A stretch of 64,000 nucleotides of DNA from Lophium mytilinum (lineage: Eukaryota; Ascomycota; Dothideomycetes; Mytilinidiales; Mytilinidiaceae). Each line of letters begins with the position of its first letter. The stretch's first letter is position 1. Position numbers and translations under genes: made by a program. The stretch is taken from the NCBI GenBank assembly GCA_010093605.1, contig MU004197.1:682001-746000 (forward strand), in the 5' to 3' direction. Below the pieces are notes generated by a model. It searched no databases and was not told where the DNA came from. It was given only the letters and a program-made list of their open reading frames with translations. Positions 12,054 to 55,500 of the stretch are shown here, in pieces.

Positions 12054-13869
12054 ACCTTGTATGATACGCTTGCTTGTGGTGTTGGAATGGATCGGATGCT
12101 TGTGGAGACGGTATCTCAGTGGCATTTCTGGAGTCTGGCAGCATGGCGCAAATGAAGCGTTTGTATACCTCAATATAACAGTCGTTATGCTTGCACCTCC
12201 TCGTATTCCACTGCTCTGTTTTTCCATTTGTGCAATCTCATTCATCTTGTACATCGTCTCCCGTCTATCTCACGCGTTTCCTCATCGCTAGCACAGGCTG
12301 GCATCTGCGTAGCAAAAGCACCACTTTCAAGTAGCTGTACTACCTGCTAAGCATCATTATACCTCACGTATTCCAACATTGCGCTCTTACCCCTGCCAGA
12401 GCAATCAGGATCTTTGCTTGCTAACCATGCGCTCAGGGACCAGCACTCCATCACTGGGTGAATCCAGGAAAGAGTCAATATTCGTCCAAAATACCGCCGC
12501 CATGACCTCTTCTCCTCCTTCATTTCCCCTAGAGAGCCACCTACTGGCACAAGTTCTGGCTGCGAAGCAATCCCGCTCGCCATCCCTGATTCCCAGTCGC
12601 GCGAACACTCTTGCGCACCAAGACCCCCAATTTGTTTGGGCGAAAGGAATTAGATTCCCACAATATGTGCTTTACGCTGATCCTGATCTACAGATTCCTC
12701 CTCCTGCAATTGATACCTTTGCAGGTGTCTTGGTTCTGAAAAGATCCTCGTCCTCGCTCCGGGACAGCTGACTTGAGGGACACTAGCCCGTACGACCACA
12801 CCAATAAATTCCGCGATTCGCGTCACCAATTCCTAAGTCTTTATGATAAGGTACCGATCTACGTCTTTAATGCAGTGACCCTACTGCTGTATCTGCGCCA
12901 GCCATGGTCGTCGAGGGCGACTTTGCCGTCGCTCGCGCCGGCCTCTCAAGGACACCAGCTCGCAACGACATCGCCATCAAGTTCCGCGTTTCGAGTCCCT
13001 GACTCCTAAGACTGTACGCGAAGGTACTACTCGATCTCTTCAATGCAGTATCCCTATCACTCTACCTTCGCCAGCCATGATTGTCAAGGGCGACTTCGCC
13101 GTCGCTCGTCTCCCAGCCCATTAAAGACACCAGCTCGCGACAACGACATCAACATCTCCCCAGAAACGTCGTCCCCTTCTAAGATCGCTCTCCAAGGCAC
13201 TTCCAAATCCTCCCAATCCAGCGCCCCCATCCCCATCTCTACACCATCCCTCCTTACCCAGCGCATCCGCCATCAGCCTTCCCGCCCTGCTCAACACCAC
13301 GTGACCAACCCGCCTCTACACGCACACGGCCGCCAGGAAACCGGCGCCCATCCGTCCATCCATCGAAGCAGCCATCCACCACATTCCGCCAGTTTCCACG
13401 CCTCCTCCTCACCCCCAACCAATTCCCCCATCGCGGACAGTCGGACGAACGAGTTTCCCGAGAAGTGGGGCGTGGAAACTGGCCGAAAGTCGCGGACGCT
13501 CCCAACCGGAAAGATGTTCGTCCGGTGACTCAGAAATCAGCCCACCGGCTGGACTGTTGGGGCGTGAGCAAGTTTCTGTGCAGGGGGGGAGGGATGAGCG
13601 AGTTTTCCGGCACGTGGGAGGTGTGGCGGTGCGGCGTGGGCGGTTTAAGGAGACGGAGAGAGGGGGCAGGAGAAACTCTTGGGGACGGTTTAGGGAAGGG
13701 CGGGGTCACGTGCTGGGTGGGCTACGACGCATGGGGGTGTTGGGGGGTAAGAGGGAGGCTGGAGGAGGTTGATTCCAGAGGGTCTGAGTTGGTTCTGGGC
13801 ATTTGGGGGTGGTTTGAGGATGGGGTGGGTGAGGAAGTGGAGGTTGGGTCACGTTTTGACGGGCTGGCT
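12054..13869. other. Gene-poor region after SEC15
   Basis: Contains the 3' region of SEC15, an open frame at 12,379-12,771 (+) with no recognised family, the two-copy repeat at 12.83-13.16 kb, and a strongly G-rich stretch at about 13.46-13.87 kb in which several long frames are open at once. I cannot support a gene here. A short real gene around the repeated ATG-containing units is possible. Confidence 0.4.
12831..13160. repeat. Two-copy direct repeat, period 173 bp
   Basis: Copy 1 begins at about 12,833 and copy 2 at about 13,005, both with CCTAAG. Shared blocks include GCGCCAGCCATG / TTCGCCAGCCATG, GGGCGACTT-GCCGTCGCTCG, and AAAGACACCAGCTCGC / AAGGACACCAGCTCGC. Each copy has an ATG followed by a similar peptide (MVVEGDFAVAR and MIVKGDFAVAR). 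Several differences between copies in the coding-like part are transitions at third codon positions. Confidence 0.75.
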
Positions 13870-15520
13870 GTTTGCTGGATGGGCTACTCCTCACAGCGGT
13901 GCTGTACCTGCAAAGCTAAATATCGAGCTATGGTATATCCGCATGTCTGGATCTACGGCCTATTCCTATAGGGATTTTCAGTTGCACAGATTGGTATAGT
14001 GGGAATCGGGGTCGCTCTTGGTCGGGGAATTGCCTGCTGGCTTGGCCACCTCTAACGGTGGTGTTGAGCGGGCAAGCTATATGTCCAAGCAGTGTGGTAG
14101 AAGGGCTTGCAGCTGAGGGGTTCAAAAAGTCGAGAATAATACAATATTAAGATTGAAGTAGCGGATATTAGGCTAGTCTTTTACTAGATAACTACCGGTT
14201 GACCGGGCCACTCCTCACGGTGGTATTACGAGAGCAAGTGGGAAGTCTTGATGTTATATACTGGGGAAGCGGCGCAATACGTTTCGAAACTCCACGCTCT
14301 ACATGACGTTACGGCTGGGGAAGGGGAAATGGAACTACCCTTTGACCGTGTGGAGACGCGTGTGTTAAGCCACTTCTTACAGCGATATTGAATGAGCAAA
14401 GGCTGAGATATAGAGACCCGAAGTAGAGCCCGAGTGCTAGCACGTCCTAAATTAAGATGTAAAGGTTCATACAACAGGAATTAGGCTGCCTTTTAAGTAG
14501 CTTGCGATGTGATGGCCGAGCCACTCCTTACAGCGTTACTACTCAGCCAAAAGCGAAATTTGAGTAACGAAATATCCGTGTAATCAATGTCAGAAGCTTT
14601 TTATGTCATGTTCACGCCGAGATAGTGGAGATTGGATAGCCTCTTGGCAGCCGCAAGACATGCTGGTTGGGCCGTTCCTTACGGTGGTATGAAAAGAGCA
14701 AGAGCAAAGCTTAGGGAGTATGATATCTGCGTATTGGGTATATCAAGCTACGAAGACGATGTAACAGCTAAGGCAATGACAATTGGGCTACCTTCTAACC
14801 TAGCGGCAACACACTTGCCAGGCCGCTCCTAGCAGTGGTGTAAAAGAGGCCGGAGAACTGCTTAGACGCGCTCAATTATTACCGGTAGATTCTCAACTCT
14901 CTATATACAATGTGAAGGCCAACACATCATATATTAGACTACCATTTGACTAGCCTGTGCCCTACTAGCCAAGGCGCTCCGTACGGTGGCGCATAGGAAG
15001 CAAGACTGAAGCTGAAGCAGGGCAATATCCTCTTCACGCGCTAAAGATTATTAAAATAAGGACGTTTGAGTATGTAAAGGTTGAAGCGTCACATATTAGA
15101 CTACCTTTTGACTAGCCAGAAACCTACCAGCTGAAACACTCCTTACGGTGGCGTCTGAGGAGCAAGACGGAGGTCTAAGTAGTGCAATATTCTATCCATA
15201 TGCATAGGGTTACAAAGATCACCTCCTTGAAGCATGTGCTCCTTGAAGCGGTGTTTATTAGGCTACTCTTCAACCACCCGGTAACCTACTAGCCAGGGCC
15301 CTCCTGACGGTGGCATCGAAGAAGCAATATGGAAGCTGAAGCAGAGTAATATGGTATCTCATGCTTGAGGCTATTAAAATCACCTCCTTTAGACATGCAT
15401 ATGTTGTCGAGGTGAAAATTGCACTACCTTTTGACCGCTTTACTGTCTACTAACTAGAACCCTCCTTGCAGCGGTACTAGATGAGCAAGAAGGAAGCCTA
15501 AGCAGTAGGATATCCGACGT
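13870..15520. repeat. Degenerate tandem array A, about 11 units of 150-165 bp
   Basis: Each unit has a core like CCACTCCTTACGGTGG followed by a short gap and GAGCAAG, then an A/T-rich part, then a block like TTAGACTACCTTTTGACTAG. Cores lie near 13,885, 14,050, 14,210, 14,370, 14,520, 14,672, 14,824, 14,974, 15,137, 15,300 and 15,462. The core is itself an inverted repeat (CCAC...GTGG). Units are strongly diverged, with many transitions, so the array is old or was mutated by RIP. No coding capacity was seen. Confidence 0.8.
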
Positions 15521-17735: not shown

Positions 17736-19600
17736 ATGCCGCCAAAATAAAATGAAATATATACACTACTCAGGGTAGGATACATATCTCACCACTTTGC
17801 TGGAGGATGTTCCCGGGCATAGGAGCGAGCGTAAGCCAGGTATGTATGCGCAAATACTTTTGTTTGGAATGCGGGCCACGTGGTGAGGCAATCGCTTCGT
17901 GAGGTTTTTCGGGCGGGGGATTTTTGGGTTTGTCGAAGACAGCACCCCACACCTTTGACAGACTCGCAACGCCATGAGGTCTTCAGACATTGCTTGGTCC
18001 TATGCGCATGGCTACGTAGGGCTTGTCGTGATCTATAATGGTGTTGAGGGTTGCTGAGGCTGGCCGGGATCGGGGATGCTAAGCGGGGGGGATTTTCCAT
18101 ACAACGACGCCATAGGCACCACCGGCAGCCTAGTAGAAGGAGGTGACAGCAGGAGAGTTCCAGAATAGATCAGTCATTCTTTCTTTAGAGTTAGCGATGC
18201 ACGTCTGATGCTTTCTGATACTTTTTTATGGATGCCATGTGGTGGCTAAAGACCCGGCATCCCCGCACCGCAATTTGGTGGTCAAGGACATTTTCCGCAC
18301 AAACCGAAGAGAGCGACTACTCATAAGTTTGAATGCTTCTTTTTTCCTATGTCAAGTAAGCTTCGAATCATGTTGGCATGGTTGCACACGGTATTGAGCC
18401 TGGTGGCCACTTTGGTGTCGTAAACTCAACATCCCCGACGAGGATTCACCAGGGCGGTAGCATAGGAGCCCACAGTAAGGAAAGCAGTCTCTGCCACTAC
18501 GGGGGCTTTGCCTCTTCGTCATGCAATACAGCCTCGATGAAGATGGGGATGGAACTGGACGTCCTGAGGACGTTCGACGTTCGACGTTGGCAGCGTGGGG
18601 GTGGGAACCGAGTACGAGCTCAGGGGCTAATCCCAAAGGGTGGTGACGCCGGATGTTTGCGGGTAGAACCATGGAACTATGACTTGTTAGTAAGCCCTCT
18701 ATCTCAACTTCATCAAACATCTGAGAAAGTTCAAAGAAATGATTGCAGCTTGTAAGGAGATGTACGAGCTCAGCCAGTTAGCGGTATGGGTGTTACACCA
18801 TGGCGAAGATAGACTGCACACCCGTGCCGATATCTCAGGCACCCGCCACTTCAAACCCGACTTTGATCTTGGTCTCGTTACTTGGACGATGCTAGTGGGG
18901 AGTAAGGCACCACCCAAATTGAGGACCCTGAAGAGTGCCATGCAATGATAGCGGGGAAGATGGAGCTTGAGCCCTCACTTGCGCTGCACAGGGAAAGGAG
19001 GAGAAGGAGCGAAGCATTTACTCACCACATATCCGGCTTGCACTTACCAGTTGGATTCCTCTGAGAAAGAAAATGGGAAACGAGGCGGAGTAGGCCACCA
19101 TCGGCGGCTCCAGTGTGCAGAGGCATCAAAGTAACGGGCCTGAGAAATCTACCACGCGAATTAGCCACTGGTTCAAGCTCGCCAATTGAGTTTGAACTGC
19201 GCTCATCATGTGAACACGTGTAACGACTAGACATCTACGCAACCCATAACATCCAAGCACGGTGCATTTGCGCCTCTGCTGATCTGGTGCCTCCGAAACT
19301 TTTGCTTGTAGTCGAAAGGCTGGTCCTTCTTCATGGCCCTTCTTCATGGACCCCTTTCCAATGGACTCCGCTCATTCGTACATGACAAGAAAGAATGAAA
19401 AGATGTAGCACCCAGGTAACCAGCCGGCTTTCGACATAAGGCTCGGAAATCAATCCTACTAGCCCAGACAAGGTGCGTCTTGGAAGTATTTCATCTGGAC
19501 AAGGAAAGATGGAACCCTCCTGGTAATTGCCGCGACCGCGGTGAGAAGCAGTGGTCTGCAGACCGTGCGCACCGATGATGCTTTCCCCTCGCTATGCTTA
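17736..19600. other. Intergenic, nothing recognised
   Basis: Mixed-composition sequence. Open frames are short and overlap on both strands. A small triplication of GACGTTC lies at about 18,566-18,585. No gene can be supported. Confidence 0.3.
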
Positions 19601-19609
19601 TTCTTGCCG

Positions 19610-20870
19610 TCCTTAGTTCAGAGAATGCTATGAGGAAGCAATCTCAATGAGAAAAGGGTGGCGGAAGGGCAGGTTTCCGATGAACTGGATTAAGACGCGA
19701 TGTTGTAAAACGAACTTACCGAGTGTTTGGATGCCATATACAAATGCTGGTCAAACAGCCTCATGAACTATCAGTATCCTATCAATTCGTTAGCTACTAT
19801 TCCACGACTCTCAGCCATGCGAATTAGGGAGAGATCGAAGACATGTAACGCCCAGAAAACCACACTGCTTTAGATAACTGGTTGCAGCGGACAGTCCCAC
19901 TGGCCCGTTGGCCGGGGAGAGTTGGAACTAATCTGGAATTTCAGCGACGAGAGCGGAGCCACGGTTCGCCTACCTACTCGAGGTGGGACCTAGGTCACAT
20001 CTCTGTCACCTTGGTTTTCTCTGGCCTTCCTTTCGAGAAATCTGCTATCAGGAAGCAGTTTCAGTTGAATGAAGGCTATTGGAATCTCTGTTTTGGGGAA
20101 GGTGATACGCGTTACTAGTGCAATTTCAAAGAAAGGAGCTTACTGGAATTCCGATGGCAGACCGCATTACAGCGATGCTCCTCGAAGGTACTTCTTGATG
20201 CTCAGAACCCTATCAACTTGTTAGCCTCTGTTCCAATCTCGTCATAATAACTTCATCTCGTCATGAGAACTTCAACCGCAATGAACCAAAGAGAAAAATC
20301 TGTAACGCGTCGGTACCATGCCACATAGCGCCTTACCATGGCGTGGCGCAAGGCTCCACGGCCCAAGCCGGTGCGTGCTGCGAGGTCTACCTAAATAGGA
20401 GATCCTCACACTTTGCCTCGACACATCAACGGACAGCACCTTCAGGGACTGACCCCTACTACGGTGTTCCGACTTGGACTGGACCTCGGTAACACCTCAA
20501 GCGACACCGAAGGCGATGAGATGGTGACTCTGCTCAACGCAAAGGCAGAGTCTGCACGCTACCATCTATATGCTCAGAATTCTGATCGCCTTCTTTGATC
20601 TTGCCTTTGTTGAAAGCAGAGAATGCTATGAGGAAGCGAGCTCTGTTACCATAAGGCGACTGCGGGAGCTCCTGGAATGAGGATTTCGAAGTGAAAAGAG
20701 AAGACGGAGACTCACTACTTTAGTCGGCATCGATGCTGATTGAAGAGAGCTTGCGAACCATCCACATGCCATCGGCTCGTTAGCCTCTGTTTCGATTTTC
20801 GTGCTGAGAGCTTCAGCAATGATAAAATAGAGAAGATTGTTTGTTTGCCGCTGAAAATCCCTATGGTAGT
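19610..20870. repeat. Three old repeats of about 0.3 kb, spaced 0.4-0.6 kb
   Basis: Copies near 19,615-19,880, 20,030-20,320 and 20,610-20,860. Copies 1 and 3 share AGAGAATGCTATGAGGAAGC; copy 2 has a diverged form. About 150 bp later all share a block like CCTATCAACTTGTTAGCCTC, then TTCCA-TCTC and, in copies 1 and 2, TGTAACGC. Between copies 2 and 3 an open frame (20,413-20,598) reads LTPTTVFRLGLDLGNTSSDT, which looks protein-like but has no recognised family. Confidence 0.5.
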
Positions 20871-27179: not shown

Positions 27180-29671
27180 ATGGTTCGCTCGACTCCGGTC
27201 CCATCATCGCCCATCATGGAGAGTTCCCCCCAGGGCTCCTCTGGCACCGGTCCAACGGAGTATTCGCCGGTCACCGAGCGTGTTCGTGGAAAGCAGCCGG
27301 TCAAGGATGAGGTTACCGATACCTTCGTCCCCACCAAGGCTTCGGCATCAACCCAGGCATCGGCATCAACCCCGGCATCGGCATCCGTCCAGGCATCGGC
27401 TTCAACCCGGGCGTCGGCCTCCACTCCGCGTGTCGTTGCGAGCGCTTCAAGCTCTTCGGGTTCCTATCACGTGGTCGGCCGCAACATTGTCGACATCGGT
27501 GACCTTGTACGCAAGGCTGTTGACCAGGTCACGTTACCACCAGTCCTTCCGGCCCATCAGGTTCTTCGCCTGCGTACCGACAAGCAACATTCCCTTACCA
27601 CGTCAAGCCTTGATGACATCGATGCCTTCTGTACACGCCACCTCTTGATCGATCTTCAGCAATGCCCTTCTTTCGCAGCCGATATTTTGAAGTGGGCTCT
27701 TCATGTAAGTTCCCAAAGTCCTCCATCTCTCACTGGCATCACATCAATATTGTTTTCTTCCTTCTCTTTTCCAACATCGCCTCTCTTGTGAACTTCAAGT
27801 CTCAATTTGTTCTTGTGTCTGACATATTTCCACAGCGTGATGTTATTGGCGAACCCGGTTCGGGCCATTACATCACAGAGTCTGCTGATAGTCTTGTCAT
27901 CCTTATTGACGCTGATGACTTGGCTCTCACACTTCGCGTCCGCGAAGTCATCCTCCGGCTCATGTTTGACGCCTGTTCGAATCTGGACGCCTTTACCGGA
28001 AACAATCTGGAGTTTCTTACCGGAATCCATCTGGAGTTCCTGCAGCCGGCCGGTGCCTCGCAGCTTCGATACCAACTGCAATCAATTTCGTCACCAGCAA
28101 CTCGCGTCGCGTTCGAGGTCCAGATGTTCAAGGCCCAGATGTTCGAGGCCCAGGTGTTCGTCCAGGTTAGGTGTATGTCTCTCCCAGGAGTCCAGCCACG
28201 CGAGTTTCTGGACTTCACCAATGAAGTCAGCAACGCTCTGACTACCAAACACTTTGCCCGTTACGGTCACGTCTTCCATGCCTTGTTGGACCACAACCAG
28301 GTTCCACAAGGTTACGAACGACTTCGTGCCGGACTCGAAGATTTCATGTACCGGGTGGAATTCGACTCTGTCAAGGCTGCACGAGACTTGGCGTATGCCT
28401 GGGCCGAGAATGCAGCTTGGGCTGAGCTGAGTGGTCGCCAGAACTTCCCAGGGCGAGGAAACCCCGTAAGTACACCCTCCGCTGCTATTGATGCATTGCT
28501 AACATTTATCAGGTATCCTGGGAGATCGTCAACGTCGGGCTAGTTGATATGCACCACGGTGATTTCGCACATCCATTCCCTCTGGAGTCGGGTTCATCTC
28601 AGCAAGTTTCTCCTGGCCATGTCAATGTTGATCGACGCCAAGGCAACTTCGCTCGCCATTCCGGTCATGGGAACGATGGTCTTTATGACCGCGGATACGC
28701 TCGTTTCCAGGATGCGCGTTTCCAGGAATTTGCGGATGCTAACGCTCATGTCGTGCGCCATGTTCTTCCCGTCCAGCATGTTTATCCCGTCCAACGGCGT
28801 GGCTTCCGACCGGGCTACCGAAACGGACGCACGTGGAATGCCCACGACAACACGGTCTCCTACGCTCACATCCTAGATGGGTCTGATGTGCGAACTACGA
28901 TCATGTTACGCAACATCCCAAATAAGATGACTGATGTAAGCACCTTCTTCCTTGCTTGTGTAGCATCAACTAACACTCTCAGGAACAACTCCTCCTTTTG
29001 CTGTGGGATGCTGGATTCCGAGGACTGATTGACTTCATGTATCTCAGGATGGATTTCAAATCGGGTGCCAACGTTGGCTATGCCTTCTTCAACCTGACTT
29101 CACCGATTCACATCATTCGATTTCTGGAATGCTTTGAAGGTCGTCCCTGGCCGAGCATGAGAGCCGGCCCAACTACCAAGCTGGCAGAGATCTCTTACGC
29201 TACCTCGCAGGGCCTCGAGGCCCTCATTCAGAAGTTCCGGAACTCATCGGTGATGAGAGAACTAAAGAGCTGCCGCCCGAAAGTAAGTCCCCAGTGCATT
29301 TTTTCCAACATAGCTCTAACGAATGCAGCTTTTCTACACCTTCCAGGACAATGTTCCAATCCAACTTGTCGGTGGTGAGGTCGACTTTCCTGCTCCTGAC
29401 AACGAGCAGAAACTTGAGAGATCAATTCAGAACGCACAGAGCATCGGTATGTGTTGTCTCTCCAATGATTCGATGCCAGAAGCGCTAACGATCCCCAGGC
29501 CTATTCCCACCGAATGGGCGCGGTGGAGCTTCCCCGAACCGTCGTGACCGGATGTCGATGTTTGACCGAGGAACTCCCCGCGACCTCGCAGCAGCGTACA
29601 ATGTCCAGGGATATGGTCCCATTTCTCCAGCCCAGTTTCAGTACCCAAACGGCCACCACTCCTTCTACTGA
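27180..29671 (+). CDS. Mei2-like RNA-binding protein
   Basis: Six exons (27180-27704, 27836-28465, 28513-28935, 28983-29282, 29329-29446, 29499-29671) join to 722 aa. The C-terminal third is the Mei2-type RRM: TTIMLRNIPNKMTD (about residues 513-526), IDFMYLRMDFKSGANVGYAF (about 542-561), then FRNSSVM near 610 and a tail ending GYGPISPAQFQYPNGHHSFY. In fission yeast Mei2 this domain binds meiRNA and drives meiotic commitment; related fungal proteins are thought to act in RNA control and development. The N-terminus has five copies of a 6-residue repeat (ASAST plus Q/P/R). Upstream RRMs of classic Mei2 are not obvious; residues about 200-350 may be diverged RRM-like. The ATG at 27,180 begins MVRSTPVPSSPIMESS. 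Introns are 46-131 bp. Confidence 0.9.
27333..27428 (+). repeat. 18-bp in-frame minisatellite in the Mei2-like gene
   Basis: About five copies of an 18-bp unit like GCATCGGCATCAACCCAG, coding ASASTQ, ASASTP, ASASVQ, ASASTR, ASASTP. Copy number can vary without frameshift. Confidence 0.85.
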
Positions 29672-30339
29672 GCCAAGATCTCCATCACCGCTATGGTTAC
29701 CCACCTTGAACTGTTTGAAGATTGGCGTCGAAACAGTCTTCTGAGGTACTTTGGCTGGGTGATGATTGCATATGCGTTGGTTCCACACCGATGCAAGACA
29801 ATTTCCTCTTTGTTGTTTCTCATGTGGGTGCTGACAGTTCGCGCTCACGACAAGTGAGCCTACTTATCTGGTCTTCGAGAGATGTTTCTTTACTTTCTGT
29901 GTATCTGGTTTCTTTTGTTTTCTCTCTCAAAAAGGTATGACGGGTCACGAGGTACGATGAAAACGAGATACGGATGATGGGAATGATTCTCGAGTGGTTT
30001 TCCTTTTTGCTTTTTGCTTGTTGCTTTCCATACTGCTAATGGATGCCCTATATGGCATCAGTATCCTGTATGGTACTGTCGGTTTCGGGTTTCGGATTTC
30101 CTTTTGTTGATCACGGTTCGGTCTGTACTAGTAGCTCCTCTTTCGGGGGAACTCTTCTGTACTTTAGTATCGCCTCTGGGAAGGCATCGGTGGGTATCAG
30201 CTTCGCAATGAATGCTTTGCCACCAACTCGCAGTATGCCTATTTGCCTTGAGTGACTCTCGATGAGATTGAGACCGCGATCATGACAGCGGCACAGAATC
30301 GTCGAAGCTTGGGTGCAAGGGACGGTGAAGGTCTTACGG
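29672..30339. other. 3' region of the Mei2-like gene and spacer
   Basis: T-rich 3' untranslated-like sequence up to about 30.1 kb. A frame starting at 30,252 (MTLDEIETAIMTAAQNRRSL) leads into the first intron-like module of the array that follows and could be the first exon of a gene there. Confidence 0.35.
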
Positions 30340-33300
30340 AAGAGGTAAGTCGACCTCCACATCCCAGGATTATCCTCAGAGACCCTAACAAAGAACATTC
30401 CAGGGCGAATACTCTGCTGGAGACCAGCAGAAAGGGCTTTGAAAAACCGCAGCGTGAAGAATCCGTACGTTCGGATCGTTTCGAGTCAGCTCTTTGCGGC
30501 GGCGCCGCCTTTCGCGGAGGTGTTCGAAATGGTAGCATTGTCGATGCAGTGTAAGTCCAAACCCCCAGGAGCACCTTCAGAGAGGGTTGGACAAGCTCGT
30601 GCTGACTTCTTGCAGGAATGCGACCGTGGGGAAGCTGGTATTGTGGCCACTTCTGGAGGCTGGGGAGTTCACATATGACACACCCGTTAGGAGGGATTGC
30701 GGCGAAGAGGGTGTACTGGGTGGGTATTGACACATAGGAGGTTGTTCTAGGAGCCTTTGGGATCCTCGTCCTGGCTTCTTGCAGGATTCCGACCGTAGAG
30801 GGGCGGTTGGAAGCGCTGGTTTGGGAGGGCTTTTAGGGGTGGAGGAGCGACCCCTTAGGCAATAGTACGGTAATGTCTTCCATCTAGGTAGGTATTGCTA
30901 CCCAGGAGGTGCTTTTAGGTAGCTTGAAGACCTTGATCCTAACATTTCGCACGGTTGCGACCGTAGGATCGATGGTAGTCGTTGTCATCGGTTCGAAGAT
31001 ACTAAGGTTGGTAGAAAAGCGACTCCTTTGGGGAATCCTGGGATCAAAGTTGAGCTGGGTGAGTATTGGTACCCAAGAGGTATTTTTGAGGACCTTTAAG
31101 AACTCCATCCTAACTTGTTGTAGGACTAGGGCCGTGAGAATGCCTTCATTGTCGCAGATTCGACTTTTTGAGATGGGCGAGGACCCACCGCTTGGAGAAT
31201 GATACGACACCATGGTTCATTCAGGTAAGTATTGCTACCCAGGGGGTGTTTGTGAGGATCATAAGGACCTGTGTCCCAACGTTCTGCAGGATTGCGACCG
31301 TGGGATCGACTATAGTCGTTGTCGTCGGTTCGAGTACTTTGGGGTTGGTAAAAAAAAAGCCACCCCTCAGGGAATGTTATGGCAATATGGTCGATCTGAG
31401 TAAGGATCTATACCTGGGAGGTGTTTATGAGCACCTTAAAGGTCCCCATCCTAGCTTTTTGCAGCAATCGACCCGTTGGAACAGTGTTGTTCTCGCGGTT
31501 TTGGTAGCTTTAGTGTGGACAAAAGAGCCACCCCTTGAGGAGTATGACGACAACAGGGTCGGTCTGGGTGGGTATTGGTACCCAAGAGGTGGTTCCGATG
31601 ACCATGAAGACGTTCATCCTAACTTTTTGCAGGAATCAACACGTCGGAATGTTGTCGTTGTCGTTGCTCCTGAAACGTTGATTTCTCTCGTAGAGAAGCC
31701 ACCCCTCGAGGAGTACTGCGGCAATACGTTCGGTCTGGGTGAGTATTGATGCCCAGGAGGTGTTTCCATTATGCTCAAAGATCTCCATCTTGATGTTTTG
31801 CGGAAATCGACCGGTCGGAATGGTGTCGTCGTCGCTGCTCTCGAAATCTTGATTTTTCTCGCAGAGAAGCCATCCCTCGAGTAGTACTATGGCAACATGG
31901 TCCATTTAGATGAGCATTGTTACCTTCAGAGCTGTTTCCATATATCCTGAACATCTTTGACCTAACTTTCTGCAGGAATCGAACGTCCAGAATAGTGTTG
32001 TTGCCGCCGGTTTCGAAATGTTGGTTCTTCTCGCAGAGAAGCCACCCCTCCGGGAGTAACACGGCAGTAACGTCGATCCAGGCAAGTATCCATACGCCAG
32101 AGGTGTTTCTAGGGACCATGAAGATCTCTGTACTAAGTTTTTACAGCATTGCGATCGTGGGATTGCCGTCGTTGCCGCCGCTTCCCAAATGTTGGTTGTT
32201 CTTAGGGAGAAGTCGTCCCTCCAGAAGAAAAACGGCAGCTAAGTCAATCAGAGCAAGTATTGTCTTGCGAGAGCTCGATCCAAGGTCCCGGAATATCTCC
32301 AAGCTGAAATTTTGCAGGAACCAAACGTCCTTTGGTGTTATTGTCGCCGTCTGGGCAACCTTTTTAGCTTGAACAGTCGGGCGACGAGGACTCGTATGGC
32401 AGCGATGTCGATCCGGGTGAGCATTGATGCATGGGAGCTGCATCTAGTACCATGTAGGATCCTCCGGCTCATGTTACACAGTCTCCAAACCGCTGGCATG
32501 GGGTTGTTGTTGTCGTCGCTGCTTGGGCAATCTTGTCCTCGTAAATGAACCAAGCGATGGGGTCGATGCCATGGGAGCATCGGGTTGCAATACGTTCAAA
32601 CGCTCGTGAGCTGATTTCAAGGGCATACATGATCTCCATGCTAACTTTTTGCAGCATCTGAACTGTCGAAATGCCGTCGTTGTCGCTGCTTCGGAACTGT
32701 CATTCTCGAGAGAAGCCAGCAAGGGACATGTATACGCCGTCAAGTTTGAGCCGAGTGACCGATGACACGCAGGAGCCCAGTCTAACATCCTGTTTGATGC
32801 TACTTTGACCTTGCTGCACGGCTTGACTGCTCGGAATGGTCTTGTTGTCGCCGCTTCTGGGGTGAAGTTACTTGCTTGTGTGGAGATCACCCAGCGAGGC
32901 AGACCTTGCGAGCCATATCGATCTGTGAGGACATTGACACACACGAGCTTCATCCCATATCTCAATGGATACACACACCAGAATTCTGTCCGATTTGGCG
33001 CATCGACATGCCGTCGTTGCCACCGATTTCGAAGTCTTTGACACGGCGGAGGCGGCTCCCGACGAAAACACTTTGCCTTATAGCAACGGCGAGCTAGAAC
33101 AGCTCCCAACACCCGAGAGATACTTCTCGCACGCTTGGAGAGCTCCATGCTAACTCCTCGCAATGTTCGCAACGCTGGATTGGTGTGTTGTCGCCATTTC
33201 GGCGGTCTTCATGGCCAAACGACGGGAGAAAAATAGACAGTAATGCCAGGCCAGAGTATGTTCAGACCCCCGAGAGCTCCGTCTCTTGTCTTTTTCGATC

Positions 33301-33600
33301 CTCCTGCTAACCTGATAGAGGGTTTGCACGTTCAATTTGGTCTCATTATTGCAGTCTTTGAAACCTGGGAAACCAGCGGGCCGGAAGTATTAGGAAGATA
33401 ATGTCAGTCCATGGCAAGCCCTGACATACGAGAGACCTATCCAGTATTCCATATAATCTCCCTGTACACTTGGAGTACGATTTGAAAAGGCAGAATGCCA
33501 TCATTTTCGCAGTCTCGGAACTCTTGGTAGCCAATCGACAAGAGGGAATACAACAGCAACGGCAGCCCATGGTATATCCTAGTGTGCGAGAAGTCCATAG
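30340..33600 (+). repeat. Tandem array B: about 17 units of 167-171 bp, each with an intron-like module
   Basis: Each unit has a module of about 65 bp that starts like GTGAGTATTG-TACCCAGGAG, contains CTAAC about 8-10 nt before the end, and ends TTTTTGCAG: all three fungal splice signals in the right places. The rest is a roughly 103-110 bp part with TTGTCGTTG and AGCCACCCCTCGAGGAGTA. Acceptor-like ends lie near 30,615, 30,785, 30,955, 31,125, 31,293, 31,466, 31,633, 31,805, 31,976, 32,146, 32,316, 32,483, 32,654, 32,815, 32,980 and 33,160, fading by 33.6 kb. Modules in three neighbouring units are all 65 bp, while the other part varies (103, 106, 110 bp), so the frame is not kept. The plus frame 31,168-31,749 and minus frames through the array are open across several units. 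Confidence 0.75.
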
Positions 33601-36600
33601 AGTGCCTTCAGACATGCACATCCTCGATTTCCCAGGGGCGAGAACTTGAGATTTGACCTCGCTGCCGCCGTCGGCAGGCAAGCACCTGCGGCGGCGAGAT
33701 CGGATTGGGGGCCTATGCGAAGCTGACTCTTTCATGCCAGGGGCCTTCTCGATCAGAAGTGCCACGCCTTGTTTGAATCCATGGAACTCACGGATGGAGA
33801 TATTTTCCGACTTAGGCATATTCCTCCGATGTGATGATCACGTGATCGTAGAGTTGGTCGTTTTCGAGGCTCGAGATCAAGGTGGTATAGTTGCCAAGTT
33901 AGTTGTCTGGCCTGGCTAAGAGATGATAGGGATCAATTAAAGATGAGGTAGCGTCTGAGTGATGCTTAGGTCTGGTATGCAGTCGTCGCAGCCGTATTTT
34001 AGGGCAGCTGGATCCAATTTCTCCGCGCGGGCTGCCGTGAAGAGACGATTTCCGTGGGCTTCTTCTTGCTTTATTTGCCTAACCGTCTTCGAGAGCTCGT
34101 CTTTGTGATCTTCACTAATGCGAGATGCCATAGTACAATCCAACTGCTGCCTCCCAGACACCGACGGGCTGCCTTTAAATCCTTCCTAGAAAGCAGCGTC
34201 GAGCTGCGATTTTACAAAAACGGTCGAGTAACGTAACAAATTCCGGCAAAATCTATGGATATGCCGTTTAATTCGTATCCATGCTCTTCTTCTCGTCTTC
34301 GAATGCTTGTTCAACGGCTGACCAGCATCCAGGGACTCTACTCTCAGGGAATACTATCAATCTTCGATAAGAGATCAAAACCTGAAACCAGATACAAATA
34401 GCTGAAAACCCAGGAAGGCCCTATACGGCATGGAGCGATCTCTGTCACGGACCTGATGTAACAAGAGCATCCGGCATTTCCCTCGGACAACACAAATCAG
34501 AATCGTGAAAGACGATCTGTATTCCATTGAAATATGGTGTGCATCCTGGTGTCCAGTTATGTCATCTTGTATCCAGATCGTTCTTGTCCTCGAATGTTCA
34601 GACCCTTCGAGCCTTGAGCAGACTAAATGGTACATCTAATCCGAGTCAAACTTGGACAAGCATGACGCCTATGTTACGAGTCCTCGAAGGAGTTCTTTGC
34701 AGAAATCCAAGTCAGAGGACAAAAGTCTTGCCGAGCTTCCCCATTTCCCAGCGGAGACACCCATATTCGACTCGAGTATTCCAAGATTTTTCTTATTCCA
34801 TGGATTAAGGCATCCAAAGTGGGCATGGCGCTCTTGTGGTGTATAGGTAGTGCTCTCGTTGTCTCGCGTGGATGACTTTCAGTGGTTCTGTTGTTCGGAC
34901 CGAGTATCCCCGCTACTTCTCGACGAAGAGCTTTGGGGGCAAGTCTCGAGGATCATCGCTTTGGAGGGCCTCGACGAAGGAAGGTGATTCTCGAGAGACA
35001 GAATGGACACGATTGGAATTCAACGCGGTTTCTCGAGGTCGGAATCGTCTGCTTGCTGTCCCGTCAGTTTGTTTCAAGCCAGATCATAGCTTACCTCTTA
35101 GGGCGACCCTGTGCCCCACAGGACAGCGTTTTGTGTACTCCTAAGCATATGACACGGGCTTCAGCGGAGTGAAGGCAAAGACCGAGCACAATTCAGAGAC
35201 GCCTTGCTTGTGTTGTCTTAGGTGTTATTCAGAGTGCCTCCTTCTTAGACGACCGCCATCTAGAGCAAGCTCGTTTGAATTAAGGCAAGGAAGGAGCGAG
35301 AGTCGTATCATTCCTGCATTACTGTTTAATGTTCCCTGAAGGCGGGAAGGTGGATGTATCGATCTCGGGGTGGTGTTTCGATTCGTGGCCTCCAACGCGT
35401 TAGAACGAGTGAAGGGACTGGGCAGCCGGCGTGGCACATTCATCAAAACACCATACCTTCTTGCAGACACCACGATCTAATGCAGAGATGGGAGAGGGAA
35501 GATGACAAGAAGCTACGGGCTTCGCCACGCTGCTCCTTCGATTCATGATGCCGGGGAAGAGCTTGCTGCCTCTCCATCCCGCCTCCCAGCCTCTCTCAAG
35601 AGGCGCTCCAAAGTACCATATGATCGATTCCTCCATCATATCCTTCCAAAAGAGTGTAAGGGGTGTCTGTATGTGTTCCGAAGTGTCGAGGGGTGTTGGT
35701 GTATGGTGGATCGAGGGTCGTGGGCTCAAGTTACGAGGAAGTCCGGAGAAAGGAGCCCACAGCACTGACACCACCGAGAGCCTCAGTGCAGATCTTCTAA
35801 GCCTTTAGATCTTCAGAAGCATACGACTACATGCCCTAGACTCAGTAATCGTTCTGTACTCATCAGTTGAAGCTCCAAAGCTCTCCGGTATGGTCTGCGG
35901 CCCAGAACGCGCCCTTGGGGGCCAAAACACCCCTCGAAAAGCACGAAGCTGCAGCCGAGCCATCGCCACCCGGCTTCAACTCTCTCCCCACCAAGATAGG
36001 ACATTCACAGGCACAACGCAGGCCCAAAGACTCGACCCATCTGATGATGTTGGCGCGTGAGACAACGCGGGCGGGGAACTGGGAGCACCGGGGTTTTAGC
36101 ACGCATGCCCATGACTCTCCGCACGCCATCCATAGGCCAGTGCGACATACCCCCTGAGAGGGGCTGACGGCCCAGCCTTTTAGGCATGATTACGCGGCGG
36201 GGAGCCAAAATTCGAATTTCTGTGAGAAGTACGTGGCTTTGGGACAAAAGGGTCTTTTTCATCCATGGTACTGTGCATTTCCGGCGTACTCCTCTACCAT
36301 ACCAAGATCTAGCTACACGCGTCGTCACCTGCCTAGTGAATTTCTATTATTATATTGTTGTTGATCCTCTAGCATCTGAGACTGTTTGCGGGTACGCCAC
36401 AACACCTCCGAGATAGCCGTTCTCGTGCCTACGAGGCTCGCTCCACACCACCTTCAGAACCCTTCGACACCCGAGGATCTAAACAAATAAAAGCGAGTGC
36501 GAGTAGGGCAATGGCAAGCTGCATCGGGGAGGCCGAGAAGAATCTTAATAGCTCAGGAGATACTTAAATGCTACGCTCCCTCGCTACCTAAGCTACTTTG

Positions 36601-37938: not shown

Positions 37939-38769
37939 ATTGGGGGGAAAGGCTTCGAGTTCTAACTGATCTAGATCAAGGCTTAAAGGGCCTCGGGACA
38001 GCAGAGAGCGATGGAGATGCATTTCGGGGTCTTGCTTTCGGGATTGAGCGCTCTGCATTGCATTGTATGGCTTTCGGATGGGCTTTGGCGTTACGGGATC
38101 ACGGGACTACCTAATGAACTAGGCATGGCATATGGATGGCGGGTAGCATTCACTGCATGCGATTGATGTTGCTAGGGAGTCAATCATGGGGAAAAGGGGG
38201 TGTTTTCTATCACGTGGGATCGTTGAGACACACGTGATGGTAGCGGTAATGTCTCTTTCGGTAGTATAATTTCTTTCTTCTCGAAACTTGCAAAGGATGC
38301 GGCTGCAAAGTCGCGAGCTGTAAGACCTGTGTTTCGACTATCAAAATTCGAAAAATATTTCCCTCCATCTATTTCAGGGCTCTGAAAGATGACTTTGGAC
38401 ATTACTATACCACTTTCTGGTATCCCCCGATAAGTTCTCAAAATCCCGGCAAGATGTAAGCAATGCTTTGACGCCGATCAATCACGGCCCAAAAAGCAGT
38501 TGCATTACTACACCCTAAGTCTCAACAACCCGATATACAATTGCTTCAGCGCCATCTTGGAAGCTGGATACCACTGTCAGGAGCATTCCCATTACCAGGA
38601 AGGCGGCCCGTCACGATATGGCTTGGACTCCATCGCGCGAAACTTGACATCGCGGTTCGAATTTAGAAACCCTATGGCGGTACCCCAGGCAGGGGCAGAG
38701 TGCGCACAGCCTATCAGTGTACCATCCCATCCTCGAGACCCCAGACTCCTAGTCTCCCAGACCTAAACC
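37939..38769. other. Intergenic, nothing recognised
   Basis: 3' region of RMP1 and a spacer up to array C. No supported gene. Confidence 0.35.
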
Positions 38770-39290
38770 GAAACGGATTACCATCTCCCAATTCCCAACT
38801 CTTGGCTCTCTCGAAACGTATAGAGCACAGATGCCAGATCTAAAAATAGCATCCCCGACTCCACCATGGTGATCCGATATCCGACCATGGAACTCATCGT
38901 ACCAAGATGTGCACAGCCAATCGAAACACGTTTCCAGTTCCCCAAAGCCGTAAGGCATGGCCTCGCCGGAAAAGTATGGAGTCCAGATGCTAAAAATAAT
39001 ACCCTTCCTCGAGTCCACTTCACGAGGGTCTTTGGTATCTAATCCGTGGGAATTAAGGGTACCAAGATGGCCGCAACCAATCGAGAACGCTTTCAGTTCC
39101 CCAAAGCCGTAAGGCCTGGCTTTCTCGAAAGGTATGGAGCCCAGATGCTAATGATAACACGCGTCCTCGAGTCCACTCTACGAGGGTCTTCGATATCTGA
39201 GCCTTGGAAATTCAGGGTACCAAGATGGCCACAACCAATCGAGAAAAGTTTCGTATTCCCCAGCCCCGTAGTGCTGAGCTTCTTCTAAGT
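38770..39290. repeat. Tandem array C, about 4 units of 150 bp
   Basis: Units share CCAAGATG, ACAACCAATCGAGAA, TTTCAGTTCCCCAAAGCCGT, AAGGCCTGGC, GGAGCCCAGATGCTAA and CCTCGAGTCCACT-TACGAGG. The clearest copies begin near 38,906, 39,060 and 39,220, with a weaker copy before them. Similarity is high between the middle units, so this array is younger than array A. Confidence 0.8.
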
Positions 39291-39469
39291 ACTTGCCAGC
39301 ATGACTTTGAGGGAGAATGCGGGAATGATGGAGGTAGTCGATTTGCAGAGAGGCTGTCATGCTTTTCGCAATAAAATGGTGGAACTTCGCCCAGTAATCT
39401 ACCCTTCTTATCTACAACGCTACTAATCCCACGTCAAAAACTCCTTGTGCATCGGGTTCACGCCCCCAA

Positions 39470-40000
39470 GAAACCACTCAGACGCCACCGACCAACTGTC
39501 AAAGTCCCCGAATCAGGGCAATTGCGATTTGAAGCCTTGAGACTTCGATATTGCGTGCAACACATTTACACCTTGATGAGCCACTTCTGACACCACTAAC
39601 CAGCTGTCAAAAGCCCTGAATTAGGCTGCTTGTAATATAAGACCTTGAGACTTTAACATCGCGTGCACCACATTCTGAGCTAGACGGGCCACCTCTAACG
39701 CCGCTATTCGGCTATTAAAAGGACCTAATTAGATTGCTTGGAATATGAGACCTTGAGACTTGGACATCGCGGGCACTATATCTTGACCTTGATGGGCCAC
39801 CTCTAACGCCGCTATACGGCAATGACAAGCCCGAATCAGGCGGCTTGCAACATGAGGTCTCGAGACTTTGACGTCGCGGGCACCACATTCTGGACCTCGA
39901 TGGGCCACCTTCAACGCCGCTACACGGCGGTCAAGAGCCTCCAATCAGCTTGCTTCTAACATAAGACCTTATGACTTTGAAATCGCGTGCTCCAGATTCA
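39470..40000. repeat. Tandem array D, about 5 units of 108 bp
   Basis: Units share GGGCCACCTCTAACGCCGCT, ATAAGACCTTGAGACTT, and ACATCGCGTGCACCACATTC. Clear cores lie near 39,579, 39,688, 39,798 and 39,903. Within the unit a small inverted repeat GCCGCTATACGGC occurs. The core GGCCACCTCTAACG is shared with array A. Confidence 0.8.
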
Positions 40001-42104
40001 TAACGCTATAATAGGAAATCGAAGGCGTGATCTGGGGTCTGTGTGGTGCCTTGGGTTGGGGAATGATGAGAAAGCTTCAGCGGTTAAAAGTGTGAAAATT
40101 ACGGAGAAAGGTATCATTTTGTGAGGATACGGCTGGCTCAAGAAGTCCTCTGTAGTGATGTAAAATTAACGGTGGAGGATAGGATCAAGAGTCGGCTAAT
40201 GCAAAAGGAGTGATGTTCCCTGGTTCTGAGGTTCTCGAACCGTGAAAGCTTATAGCTGGATTAGGAATTTCGAAGGTGGTGGAGCAGAGTGTGGAGTGCA
40301 GAGGATACATTTCATCTGCCGTCCAAAGTCCAAAGTTGTTTAGTATCCCTGGGCCCGACGCATTTGGCTCTAAAATATCAGTAGGAACACAACCAATAGG
40401 AAGCCTCGAGTGATTTGATAACAGCTGCAGCGAAGGACTTGAGCAATACATGCCCTCTAGGCTTTTCGTACACTACCCTAGCATCGCCTGGGGTCCTGTA
40501 GTACAATATGAGAGATTAGAAAGGGACAGTTCTAACAAGATAAAAAGCGTTGCGGGCCACCTTAAACGGTGCTAGACTGTCCGTTTACATAGTGTGTGTA
40601 ACAGAGAGTCCGAGCGTTGCGCCACGACGGGCTAAGAGATAGTTGGATTGGGAATGTCGAAGGCGGCGGAGAAGAGTGTGGAGTGCAGAGGACACATTTC
40701 ATCTACTGTGACGAAGTCAAAACCTCCTTGGTATCGGTACCTCCTGACACGTTTTGTGGCGCTTCAACGTGCTGATCGAACTGGGATCGAATGGTCAAAT
40801 GTCAATTTGTCAGCGCAGCCTGAGGTACTAGGCAGGCAGGAAATAAATGGCACACTACAGCATTTCAACACTGTCTGAGGTGGCCCAAAGAGCTATCAAG
40901 CTTGCCAAAGCGGAATTTTTATGAAAAGCAGTAGCATACTGGCGGACCTCAGGCGGTGCTAAACAAACGTATACAGCATATAAATAGTGTGTATATACCT
41001 TATGGATCTGTAAACTGCTGCTCTCTATTAACCCTTTATTACTACGCTGCCTTCCGGATGCACCGGTTACCACTGCTTGAGGGGCCTTAACGAGTTTCTA
41101 CAGACCCGTGATGGAAGAACTTCTATCCTATCTGAATTTCCGAAAATGCACTGAAGCACTCCAAACGGTGGCATACACACGTATGTACAACTGAGTGAAT
41201 GCACTAACGCTAAAACACTAAAAAGGCTGCTCTCCAGTGTTGTTCCTCCACTCTGGCTTATTAGGTGTGCCAGTAGGCAGAGACCCGCCGGCGCCAATGT
41301 TTGTGTATGGGTCGTATTTTGGCTTCCAACTCCCTTCTTCTCTTTGAACGACCATTCTCCAATCTTTCAAACCGGGTATCCTACTCAGCTCCTAACACGG
41401 GAACTCCCCGTTCAACCAATTCTTGGCCGCCTTGCCTTGGGGATCTTCTTGAAAACATTGACAATCAGCGCGGAAATGGGTGTTGATTGGAATGATTATC
41501 ATGTAAACGGACAAGACGTGGTTAGGGACTGGGAATCGAAGGATGGGCTAGAAGAGAATCGATAGCAAATATGGTGGAGTTTGCTGGAGACTCACGGTGA
41601 AGGCTGAGTTGATGTAACGAATTGTTGCACTAATAGAACGAAGTAAGGATTTCCTGCGCTAACAGAATTCGAATCGATGCGCTAATGGGATTTTCAGACG
41701 ACGTGCTGCTGATGGATTGTTGATGGAAGAGGATGAATCCCGCAGTAGGCGCCCTAAGGGAATGACCACCATGATTTGTACGTAGCTCTGGCAGAAGGTG
41801 TTACCATTGAGCGAACGAGATAGGTAGGAAGACGGAGCATCGAGAGCAAGTGCGGTCGATATCCCGTAGCCCTTCGCAATTAACTCTTGGTTGTCGATCA
41901 GGGTGCAAGCAGAGAGAACACGCAAGCAATCTTTCCTCCAGACTTTTGCATATTTTGATAGTAGCGCAGGAGGCCTCCTAGCAGGCTATAATAGATCGGA
42001 AAAGGTCAACGCTAATAAGGTCAGGAGCTTTGGGGCCACCTCACACGGTGTCGGGTTACTACTTTGTGTCGAAGGGAGCCTGATCAGGAGATAGTACATT
42101 CGCG
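40001..42104. other. Gene-poor region with scattered repeat fragments
   Basis: Holds the 85-bp direct repeat pair (40,252-40,335 and 40,640-40,725). It also holds single copies of an ACGGTG-containing core near 40,556, 40,930, 41,160 and 42,032 that resemble the array A/D core (for example GGGCCACCTCACACGGTG near 42,031). No gene supported. Confidence 0.5.
40252..40725. repeat. 85-bp direct repeat, copies 388 bp apart
   Basis: Copies at 40,252-40,335 and 40,640-40,725 share TAG-TGGATT-GGAAT-TCGAAGG and AGAGTGTGGAGTGCAGAGGA, then ACATTTCATCT. Differences are mostly transitions. A fainter third version (GGTTAGGGACTGGGAATCGA) lies near 41,520. Confidence 0.65.
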
Positions 42105-45370: not shown

Positions 45371-45459
45371 GCGCGGATAGTTTAATGGTAGAATTCGGTC
45401 TTCCCACCGTCGACGTGACATGTATGGCCGAGGCCCGGGTTCGATTCCCGGTCCGCGCA
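45371..45459 (+). tRNA. tRNA-Gly (anticodon CCC) with 18-nt intron
   Basis: The acceptor stem GCGCGGA (45,371-45,377) pairs with TCCGCGC (45,452-45,458), with discriminator A at 45,459. The D arm has GTTTAATGGTAGAAT. The anticodon stem CGGTC pairs with GGCCG, with loop TTCCCA then the intron then T, so the anticodon is CCC. The intron sits at the canonical position after base 37 (about 45,407-45,424). The T arm is CCGGG-TTCGATT-CCCGG. The 3' CCA is not encoded, as expected in eukaryotes. It lies 212 bp upstream of the GET4 start on the same strand. Confidence 0.95.
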
Positions 45460-52500: not shown

Positions 52501-55500
52501 TAGCCACGAGGAGCGGGAAGGGGACCTTCCTCACTCGGCGGGGCGATCGGCGCCGTCGACTTCACTGTATACGCCCGTGCGGAGGGCTTGAAACGGTGAA
52601 GTAGTGGCGATGCTGAAACTACGCACGAGGTACCGCGTGGAGAGGAAGCAAACCTACGACATAGCGTTTGTGAAGCGGTGTTTTCCGATGCTATCGATCG
52701 ATCGATGTCGCTGGTGTTTCTTGGTTACAGTGATGCTTTTCGGACTAGGCAGATCTAGGCGACTATTTTGAGATAGATTTAGGAGAAGAGCAGTATTTGC
52801 ATGCGGCGGTTCCAATTGAAGGGTTTGAATGATGATAATGAGCAGAGAGTGAACGAGATATCTCACGCATACTCTACATACTAGAAATCCACCTACATCA
52901 AACGCACAAGGCGTCCACAACCTCCAGCCCATCAATCGATCTATGCACTGGTCGCGCATATCATCACCCATCAAGCACATCCGGAACAACCTACCTCATC
53001 CCCAATCCACACAGCCAGGTCCCGAACCCCAACCCCAACCGCACAAGATCATCCACCTCTCACAGCCCCACGGCTCTCCTCCAAAGCACCACGCTCTCTT
53101 TCGAACGAGTTTCAAAGTCAACTTCCCGAAAGCGCACCCATGCAGCTGGGTGGGTAGTCTCCTCGCCCAAACCGCTCCACCCGCGGAGCCTCCTCCTCTA
53201 GATACGGACACGCACAAACCTCTACTCCCCGACACGGTTAGTTCCCCCGTATCAACCGCATACATAATAAACCACCTCGGCTCCAGCGCAAGGACCTACT
53301 CGAATCCGCTTACATGCATATACATGCAAAGCACAGGAAGCAGAGGGCAGAAGACAAGATACTCCGGCGGCCCGTGATGGGGTCGAGCGGTGCGGTGGTG
53401 GTGTTTCGAAGGCGGGCTGGGGGTGCGCTAATGCAGGTACGTGCGCTCAAGATTCCCTTTTAGGGGTGAAGACCGCGATGAGGTGACGGAGGGGTGGGCA
53501 GCGGCGGTGGACTCAATGAGATGATATGGAAGCGAGTCCGTGGATAAGCTAGGAGGTTGATGGGAACGGATGGCTGCGGAGGGAGTCGTGGATGAAGAGG
53601 TGGAGCTGGGCATGTAGGGTGACGTCTCAGGGGCCGGTTGGAAAAGTGGCGATGAGGGGGTGCAGGATGTGGCTAGGGAGGGAGTTAGGCTGTTGTGTAT
53701 TGATCCTCTAGAGGATTCTTCTGGGGGGAATCGAGATCTGTGAGGGTTGGAGATCGTTCACTTGCGTGCATACAGGTGCTTCGAAGATTACGTTTGTGGG
53801 CCAGTGAGATGGAAAATCTGAATCTCTTTACTAGTTTTTGACTGGATGGTGCAGTGCCTACCACAGTGGTATTCAAAGATAATAGGACATGAGCCACAAG
53901 CAGGTCTGATGGTTGAGACAGGCGGAGTGGACCGTTTTGCCAATCACGACGATCGCACAGAACTGACAGACAACGGGTTGCTTCAATCCCCCACATTTCC
54001 ACCATACCTCGCGCTATCGCTCTATCAGCGGAAAGAGACGGCCGTCCATCAACTCGACCCTGCTCAACCTCGCTAGGCCTCCCAAGCAGCCTCATCCACG
54101 TCCTGACACAGCCCCCTCTACCCTCGCGCGCGCTCTACTGGCAGTTAAACGAGCCGCCCTCAACCACTCTTTCAACCGCTGACGAGGACCCCGACTCTTA
54201 ACAGCAGTCCTAAGCGCTTGCGCACCAGGAAGCATCACGGGATCCCGCGCGCTGACTCGCCCGCTGCAGGACCCTCCAAACGCAGCGGGGCCAGGACGAA
54301 AAGGCAAAAATGGCTGAAACACGGCCGCCCACGTGCTGATTGGCAGCACACGCTCGGGCGAGACGCCAGACAAAAGTTCCACCCACCTGCTGTCCACGGC
54401 AAGGCCAAGCGGGGCCCGCCGTTTTGTCGCCACGAGCCAGCCAGCGGTGGGCGGGAGGGGGGAGAAAGAGGCTGGCTGGGCGGGGCCGCGATTGCGTTAT
54501 TGGCGTTGGCGAAGCTTGGGGTTTTTTGGGAGAGCGGCGCTGGTGTTTCAGAGGCAGATCAAACTGCCAGCAGAAGTGCTTGTTCCTGCAGCGACTGCGA
54601 CGCACAGAGAGGGTTCGCGGGGACCAGCCACAGGTGGATGCGGCGATCGCACTGCGGATTTCAGCCCTGTTTTCGGCCCGGTCGGAGGGAGGGCTGCTGG
54701 GTGCGCGCGGCAAGACGGACGGCATCGTGAATGTGGCCGCCCGTGAAGCATCGTGTCTATAATTGTGCGCCTATCAGACTGAGGCGTGTGCCCGTGAGAC
54801 GAGTTCACGGCTGGCGGCATGAACCGTGGCCAGAGACACGGGATTTGAAAAGGGTTCCGGGCTGGAGGGTGAAAGAGGCTGTTACAGAGCGAGGCGTATC
54901 GCTCCATCCCGAGCTCTATCACGAGTTGAGTTGCGGCACATCCCACCCTCGAAGCTTGGAGCCTTCACCGCCATGCTCGACTGGGCAGCTGCTGTGGGTG
55001 CTTTGCCTCTTCGACTCGCCGTGCATATTTTGAGTCGCGGAGTAGCGAGAGAGCAGCATGGCGGTCAGACAGGGAGGGAGTGAGGGTGGTGTTGACCTCC
55101 ACATTCCGCCCACGATTGCAGATAGCCCTGCGTCGACGATCGCGATCAACGCTTCGTCGCAGCATCAACGATACTGGTAAGTCCTCGCCAGAGTCTTCAA
55201 GTCTCGTACCTCGATCGTCAACAACGCAGCGCGATCAGCGAGTCTGGAGACGAGGAGAGGAAACGCATGGTCATCGGCGGGCAGCGCTCTTTTCGGCAGC
55301 GTGGGTGGTGTGGAGGGAGGGAGGGATAGCGCTAGACTGCTTTCCTGCTACTCCCGGCGGCGAGCGAGCAGGAGATGCACCCGTCCCCGTCTTCGGCAAC
55401 CAAAGCGCACTGGCAAAGTGTCTCTCTGCTGCTGGTCGCCGCGATGCCGGTGCGGGTTGTCTCGCTGTCCCGTGTCGTGGTGTTGTGGTGTCTCGACATT

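Follow-up and report, generated by a model that had tools for sequence, protein, structure and literature searches.

Organization of the array

The stretch of Lophium mytilinum DNA considered here (64,000 nucleotides of contig MU004197.1; hereafter the window) carries at positions 30551-33543 a degenerate tandem array with a period of approximately 171 bp, the consensus of which holds a 65-bp stretch resembling a fungal intron, with donor GTAAGT, a branch-like CTAAC and acceptor TTTTTGCAG. A search of the window with a profile derived from the 11 best units gave 18 matches within this interval (expectation values, E, from 2.5e-36 to 9.6e-06) and none elsewhere. All 18 units lie head-to-tail on the + strand, consistent with an earlier note on this DNA, which had described about 17 tandem units of some 170 bp in a single orientation (+). 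Steps from unit to unit measure 164-175 bp in the best part of the array. In the unit alignment, the intron-like modules of the 12 best units begin at positions 30551, 30720, 30888, 31059, 31225, 31400, 31568, 31739, 31910, 32082, 32253 and 32417, the twelfth ending at 32481. The last 6 units (32482-33543), delimited by the profile search, form the right-hand end of the array, where the most decayed units are found and where splice-like positions are kept no better than others.

Mean pairwise identity among the 11 best units is 57%. Identity drops with separation, from 0.59 at distance 1 to about 0.50 at distances 9-11, and Tandem Repeats Finder (TRF) detects just 2.2 units of the array. Indices of repeat-induced point mutation (RIP) in the array are similar to those of the window. 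Both hallmarks of a minisatellite are present: the units are related and share one orientation, and neighbours are more alike than distant units. The tandem repetition as such certainly exceeds chance.

Completeness of the intron-like module

The module was found to be nearly constant in length beside a variable remainder, much as the earlier note had proposed. It measures 65 bp in 10 of the 12 best units and 66 bp in the other two, while the remainder of the unit spans 99-110 bp in the 8 cases in which an acceptor precedes it and a donor follows. This length is an ordinary one for an intron in this genome, since strict intron-like modules elsewhere span 47-97 bp (22 cases in 20 sampled 10-kb stretches, from a scan limited to 40-100 bp and made with no comparison with genes). 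The companion claim, that every unit carries a complete module, did not hold. Just 9 of the 18 units keep GT or GC where it should stand and YAG exactly 65 bp on; the number rises to 10 when spacings of 63-67 bp are allowed, and one more unit, at 32606, holds a shorter module of 49 bp. A strict intron test (GTRAGT, CTRAY, YAG) is passed by 2 of the 18 and a relaxed version, also applied, by 5. Among the 12 best units, GT or GC is kept together with the branch A and AG in seven, GT with the branch A and AG in five, GT with G5, CTRAY and YAG in three, and the strict set in two. The bases lost from these units include the acceptor AG at 30888 and 31739, the donor G at 31910 and the branch A at 30720 and 31400.

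Coding capacity and RNA structure

One possibility is that the array is what remains of a protein gene that expanded by exon-intron duplication and then died, as suggested in the earlier note, or a coding repeat on either strand. The period of 171 bp is divisible by three, and two open frames, of 203 codons on the + strand and 244 codons on the minus strand, cross parts of the array. The minus-strand frame (32477-33208) runs through the decayed end and is longer than its dinucleotide composition predicts (p 0.008); it has no Pfam match. The units themselves, however, gave no codon-phase signal: a period of three in variability was absent from the module, from the rest of the unit and from the whole (p 0.51-0.84; 11 units), and the eight exon-like lengths are out of frame, leaving 2, 1, 2, 2, 1, 1, 1 and 0 on division by three. 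Furthermore, the longest spliced open frame of the array does not exceed in length what shuffled sequence gives (p 0.15), no frame shows a depletion of stop codons once all six frames are taken into account (lowest P 0.037), and 8 open frames of the array region yielded no Pfam match above the cut-off. A coding origin, living or dead, is already disfavoured by these results, and we consider it improbable.

A structured RNA repeat found no support, neither a consensus fold nor an Rfam match being obtained. For 11 units on the + strand, folding returned only a weak arrangement of 7 pairs (-1.74 kcal/mol, covariation term +0.06), with 2 pairs supported by one compensated sequence each, and Rfam gave no match up to E 1 in the interval 29600-34500.

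Search for copies outside the array

The intron-like length and signals of the module are also what introner-like elements inserted in tandem would display, and such elements are reported to occur in Dothideomycete fungi (PMC4457414). Searches of the genome DNA with pieces of 377 bp and 1866 bp, two 65-bp modules and the 14-mer CTAACTTTTTGCAG nonetheless gave hits within the array only, revealing no near-identical copies of the unit or the module elsewhere, with the reservation that diverged copies would be missed (each 65-bp query recovered just 2 modules of the array itself). This negative extends to near-identical copies inside genes, where the earlier note had suggested that the module be sought. 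A profile of the module found nothing in a further 215,805 bases from the genome. In the window, 14 of its 15 matches lie within the array, and the other, at 53697-53741, is weak and partial (E 0.022, model positions 5-48 of 65). Many dispersed near-identical copies, positioned as introns in unrelated genes, characterize introners; in these searches the array module showed neither property, and its derivation from tandem introners appears extremely improbable.

Chance occurrence and conservation of the splice-like signals

The genome (43.2 Mb in 24 contigs) is rich in degenerate tandem arrays. Sensitive self-comparison detected 18 degenerate array clusters in 264 kb, of which the window holds 8 and the sampled 10-kb stretches 10 (spread over 9 of the 20), in a survey that was run without a shuffled control, that included two stretches adjoining the window and in which several clusters consist of two copies only. 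The array at 30551-33543 is one of many such arrays and probably an ordinary one. Twenty-five array consensi, namely the survey arrays and seven more (six from five loci chosen for a motif and one from TRF), were examined on both strands for splice modules. The strict module occurs once among them, in the array at 30551-33543, compared to 0.36 expected from shuffling, and the relaxed module four times, compared to 4.34; the other 24 consensi hold no strict and three relaxed modules. Of random 171-mers, 0.98% contain the strict module on one strand. Since the numbers found and expected among the 25 consensi are at chance level, one array with a strict module is unremarkable, although this argument is limited by the facts that the consensi are not independent (at least 8 share one family core), that many cover only part of a unit and that some rest on 2-3 copies.

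Several points weigh against a coincidental origin of the splice-like signals. They come chiefly from the best units, in tests that are partly circular because the module was picked by eye for its recurrence, and whose null assumes even conservation. At the 12 splice-core positions, the 12 best units differ in 0.266 of pairwise comparisons, compared to 0.455-0.478 at other positions, and variability there is the lowest of 171 circular shifts in 12 of 12 alignments of these units (all of them variants of one data set, opened at four different points lying away from the module), as well as in the 11-unit test. Comparison with random sets of positions gave p values from 0 to 0.0014 in the 11-12 best units. 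Under a null of uniform substitution rate, the numbers of units retaining the four sets of splice bases listed above all exceed expectation: 7/12 against 2.2 for GT or GC, branch A and AG (P 0.0025), 5/12 against 1.9 when GT is required (P 0.028), 3/12 against 0.35 for GT, G5, CTRAY and YAG (P 0.005) and 2/12 against 0.14 for the strict set (P 0.009). Depending on the alignment, 15-32 indel events fall outside the module and 1 inside. Both donors lacking the T became GCAAGT, which is a tolerated donor form. Finally, the 9 of 18 units with GT or GC and YAG exactly 65 bp apart are to be compared with a mean of 0.1 at shifted places. When just the four edge positions are considered, as good or better results come from 3 of 171 offsets with the same spacing and from 2.8% of all offset-spacing choices.

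This excess is not repeated in the 6 decayed units, where the splice core matches the better-unit consensus in 43 of 70 cells as against 395 of 707 for the other positions (rank 39 of 145 shifts). Inclusion of the 32417 unit, which is also among the 12 best, changes these figures to 52 of 82 and 474 of 839 (rank 37 of 145). In this test the alignment profile had included the decayed units, the consensus had not, and 145 of approximately 171 columns were covered. The comparison of substitution rates between splice bases and the rest of the unit, called for in the earlier note, came out divided, and with it the evidence for selection on splicing: among the 11-12 best units, splice bases vary least (rank 1 of 171), and the decayed units show no such difference. 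Uneven conservation is in itself no sign of splicing, since 5 of 7 other arrays tested are more block-wise in their conservation than this one, and the strict splice module is absent from all 7. Lag-1 autocorrelation is 0.20-0.57 in the five (p 0.02 or less) and 0.10 and 0.03 in the remaining two, compared to 0.07 (p 0.17) in the array at 30551-33543.

Judged from its sequence, the array might alternatively specify a spliced, multi-exon noncoding RNA that grew as an exon-intron unit was duplicated and whose left two thirds experience weak selection. Such a transcript would be consistent with the conservation of the splice core and the scarcity of module indels in the best units, with a distance of 65 bp between the module edges of 9 of the 18 units, with a module length resembling that of the genome's other intron-like modules and with the presence of another intron-like stretch directly upstream (30345-30403; see below). 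It is harder to reconcile with the small numbers of units passing the intron tests (2/18 strict, 5/18 relaxed), with the loss of AG or G1 in three and of the branch A in two more of the 12 best units, with the decayed units, which lack special conservation, and with the chance-level occurrence of modules among arrays. The noncoding transcript listed in the earlier note thus finds backing in the best units that the decayed units do not extend, and we regard it as rather unlikely. In a more specific form, a noncoding RNA gene would comprise about 10 tandem exon-intron units in which the introns, through their 65-bp length and splice signals, would be selected over the exons, the right-hand units being dead; this seems unlikely. 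Were the module spliced, the product would be an unusual transcript, grown by exon-intron unit duplication and having introns as its constrained part.

Taken together, we think it quite probable that the array is a decayed non-coding local minisatellite, most likely bearing its splice-like signals by coincidence. A founder unit of about 171 bp would have been multiplied stepwise, presumably via unequal crossing-over or replication slippage, and the units would then have diverged, most strongly at the right-hand end. The splice-like module would most likely be a chance property of the founder sequence. We infer both this mode of amplification and the absence of a splicing function. Of the four explanations considered in the earlier note, satellite DNA with fortuitous splice-like signals is the best supported, given the chance-level occurrence of modules, the incomplete units and the lack of excess conservation in the decayed units.

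Surroundings of the array and other arrays of the genome

The intron-like stretch to the left of the array (30345-30403, + strand) is 59 bp long, has the signals GTAAGT, CTAAC and CAG and passes the strict test. It is not detectably a further unit of the array (p 0.11). This perfect intron-like stretch lies inside an open frame of 100 codons (30252-30554, + strand), the stop codon of which falls within the first unit's donor. The frame has no Pfam match, and no second genome copy of its 90 codons from the ATG was found. Upstream, in the same orientation as the array, is a gene with an RRM_2 domain of the Mei2 type (28998-29375, E 3.8e-18), the frame of which, judged by eye, stops near 29672. 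On the downstream side, the first Pfam-matched frame among those scanned is RMP1-like and lies near 37.4 kb. A transfer RNA (tRNA) gene was detected at 45371-45459 (Rfam, 53.3 bits). ARAGORN leaves its anticodon unresolved, which an intron might perhaps explain.

Degenerate arrays are denser in the window, with 8 clusters in 64 kb, than in the sampled stretches, where 200 kb yielded 10. Further degenerate tandem arrays lie at window positions 12778-13264, 19496-20235, 38766-39288, 39447-39999 and 40252-40735, and at genome loci L005, L008, L009, L013, L019, L020, L021 and L024. A dispersed family of degenerate arrays, designated F1, has periods of about 106 to 173 bp and a common core, CCACTCCTTACGGTGG. 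F1 arrays were found at window 13835-15500 and at genome loci L025, L026, L015 (+) and L027, L028, L029 (-). The core occurs at 115 genome places at up to 2 mismatches, compared to 25 for a reversed control. The loci examined contain 102 F1 units, and single copies stand at window positions 38554 (-) and 61948 (+). Kinship between F1 and the array at 30551-33543 was considered and rejected: consensus alignments gave p 0.02-0.05 against 4 members but 0.43-0.45 against the F1 consensus, and in profile searches the F1 arrays either went unmatched or scored in the range of shuffled sequences. Also rejected was a covarying hairpin in the F1 core, since at 5 of 5 tested pairs the bases pair about as often as they would in independent columns.

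The array at window 60010-61692 comprises 14 detected units of about 132 bp. By eye, each unit is built from three kinds of sub-unit of about 44 bp, in which a core of about 22 bp is well conserved and the spacer varies. Of the 8 arrays tested, this one shows the most pronounced block-wise conservation, and such a pattern points to a constraint that may reflect regularly placed binding sites.

Discussion

The main lesson of this analysis is that, where a genome holds many degenerate arrays, chance can produce a perfect intron consensus. The array also draws attention to these arrays as such, some of which display strong block-wise conservation. No description of an array like the one at 30551-33543 was found among the titles and abstract beginnings listed in searches of open-licence literature, which does not prove that none exists.

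Three known systems invite comparison. Introner-like elements, reported from Dothideomycetes (PMC4457414) and more widely (PMC9860276), resemble the array module in their intron-like length and signals. Here, in contrast, a single tandem array is present and dispersed copies were not found. Intron gain by tandem genomic duplication has been described in a gene for RNA-dependent RNA polymerase (PMC4974935). The likeness to the array consists in tandem duplication with splice-like sites; the system described there concerns that polymerase gene, whereas the array is without coding signal. The closest parallel is with minisatellites and other degenerate local arrays, with which the array shares head-to-tail units of about 171 bp at one locus, an identity that falls with distance and a decayed end. 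It differs from an ordinary minisatellite in that its consensus carries a full splice-like module, the positions of which are less variable than the rest in the best units.
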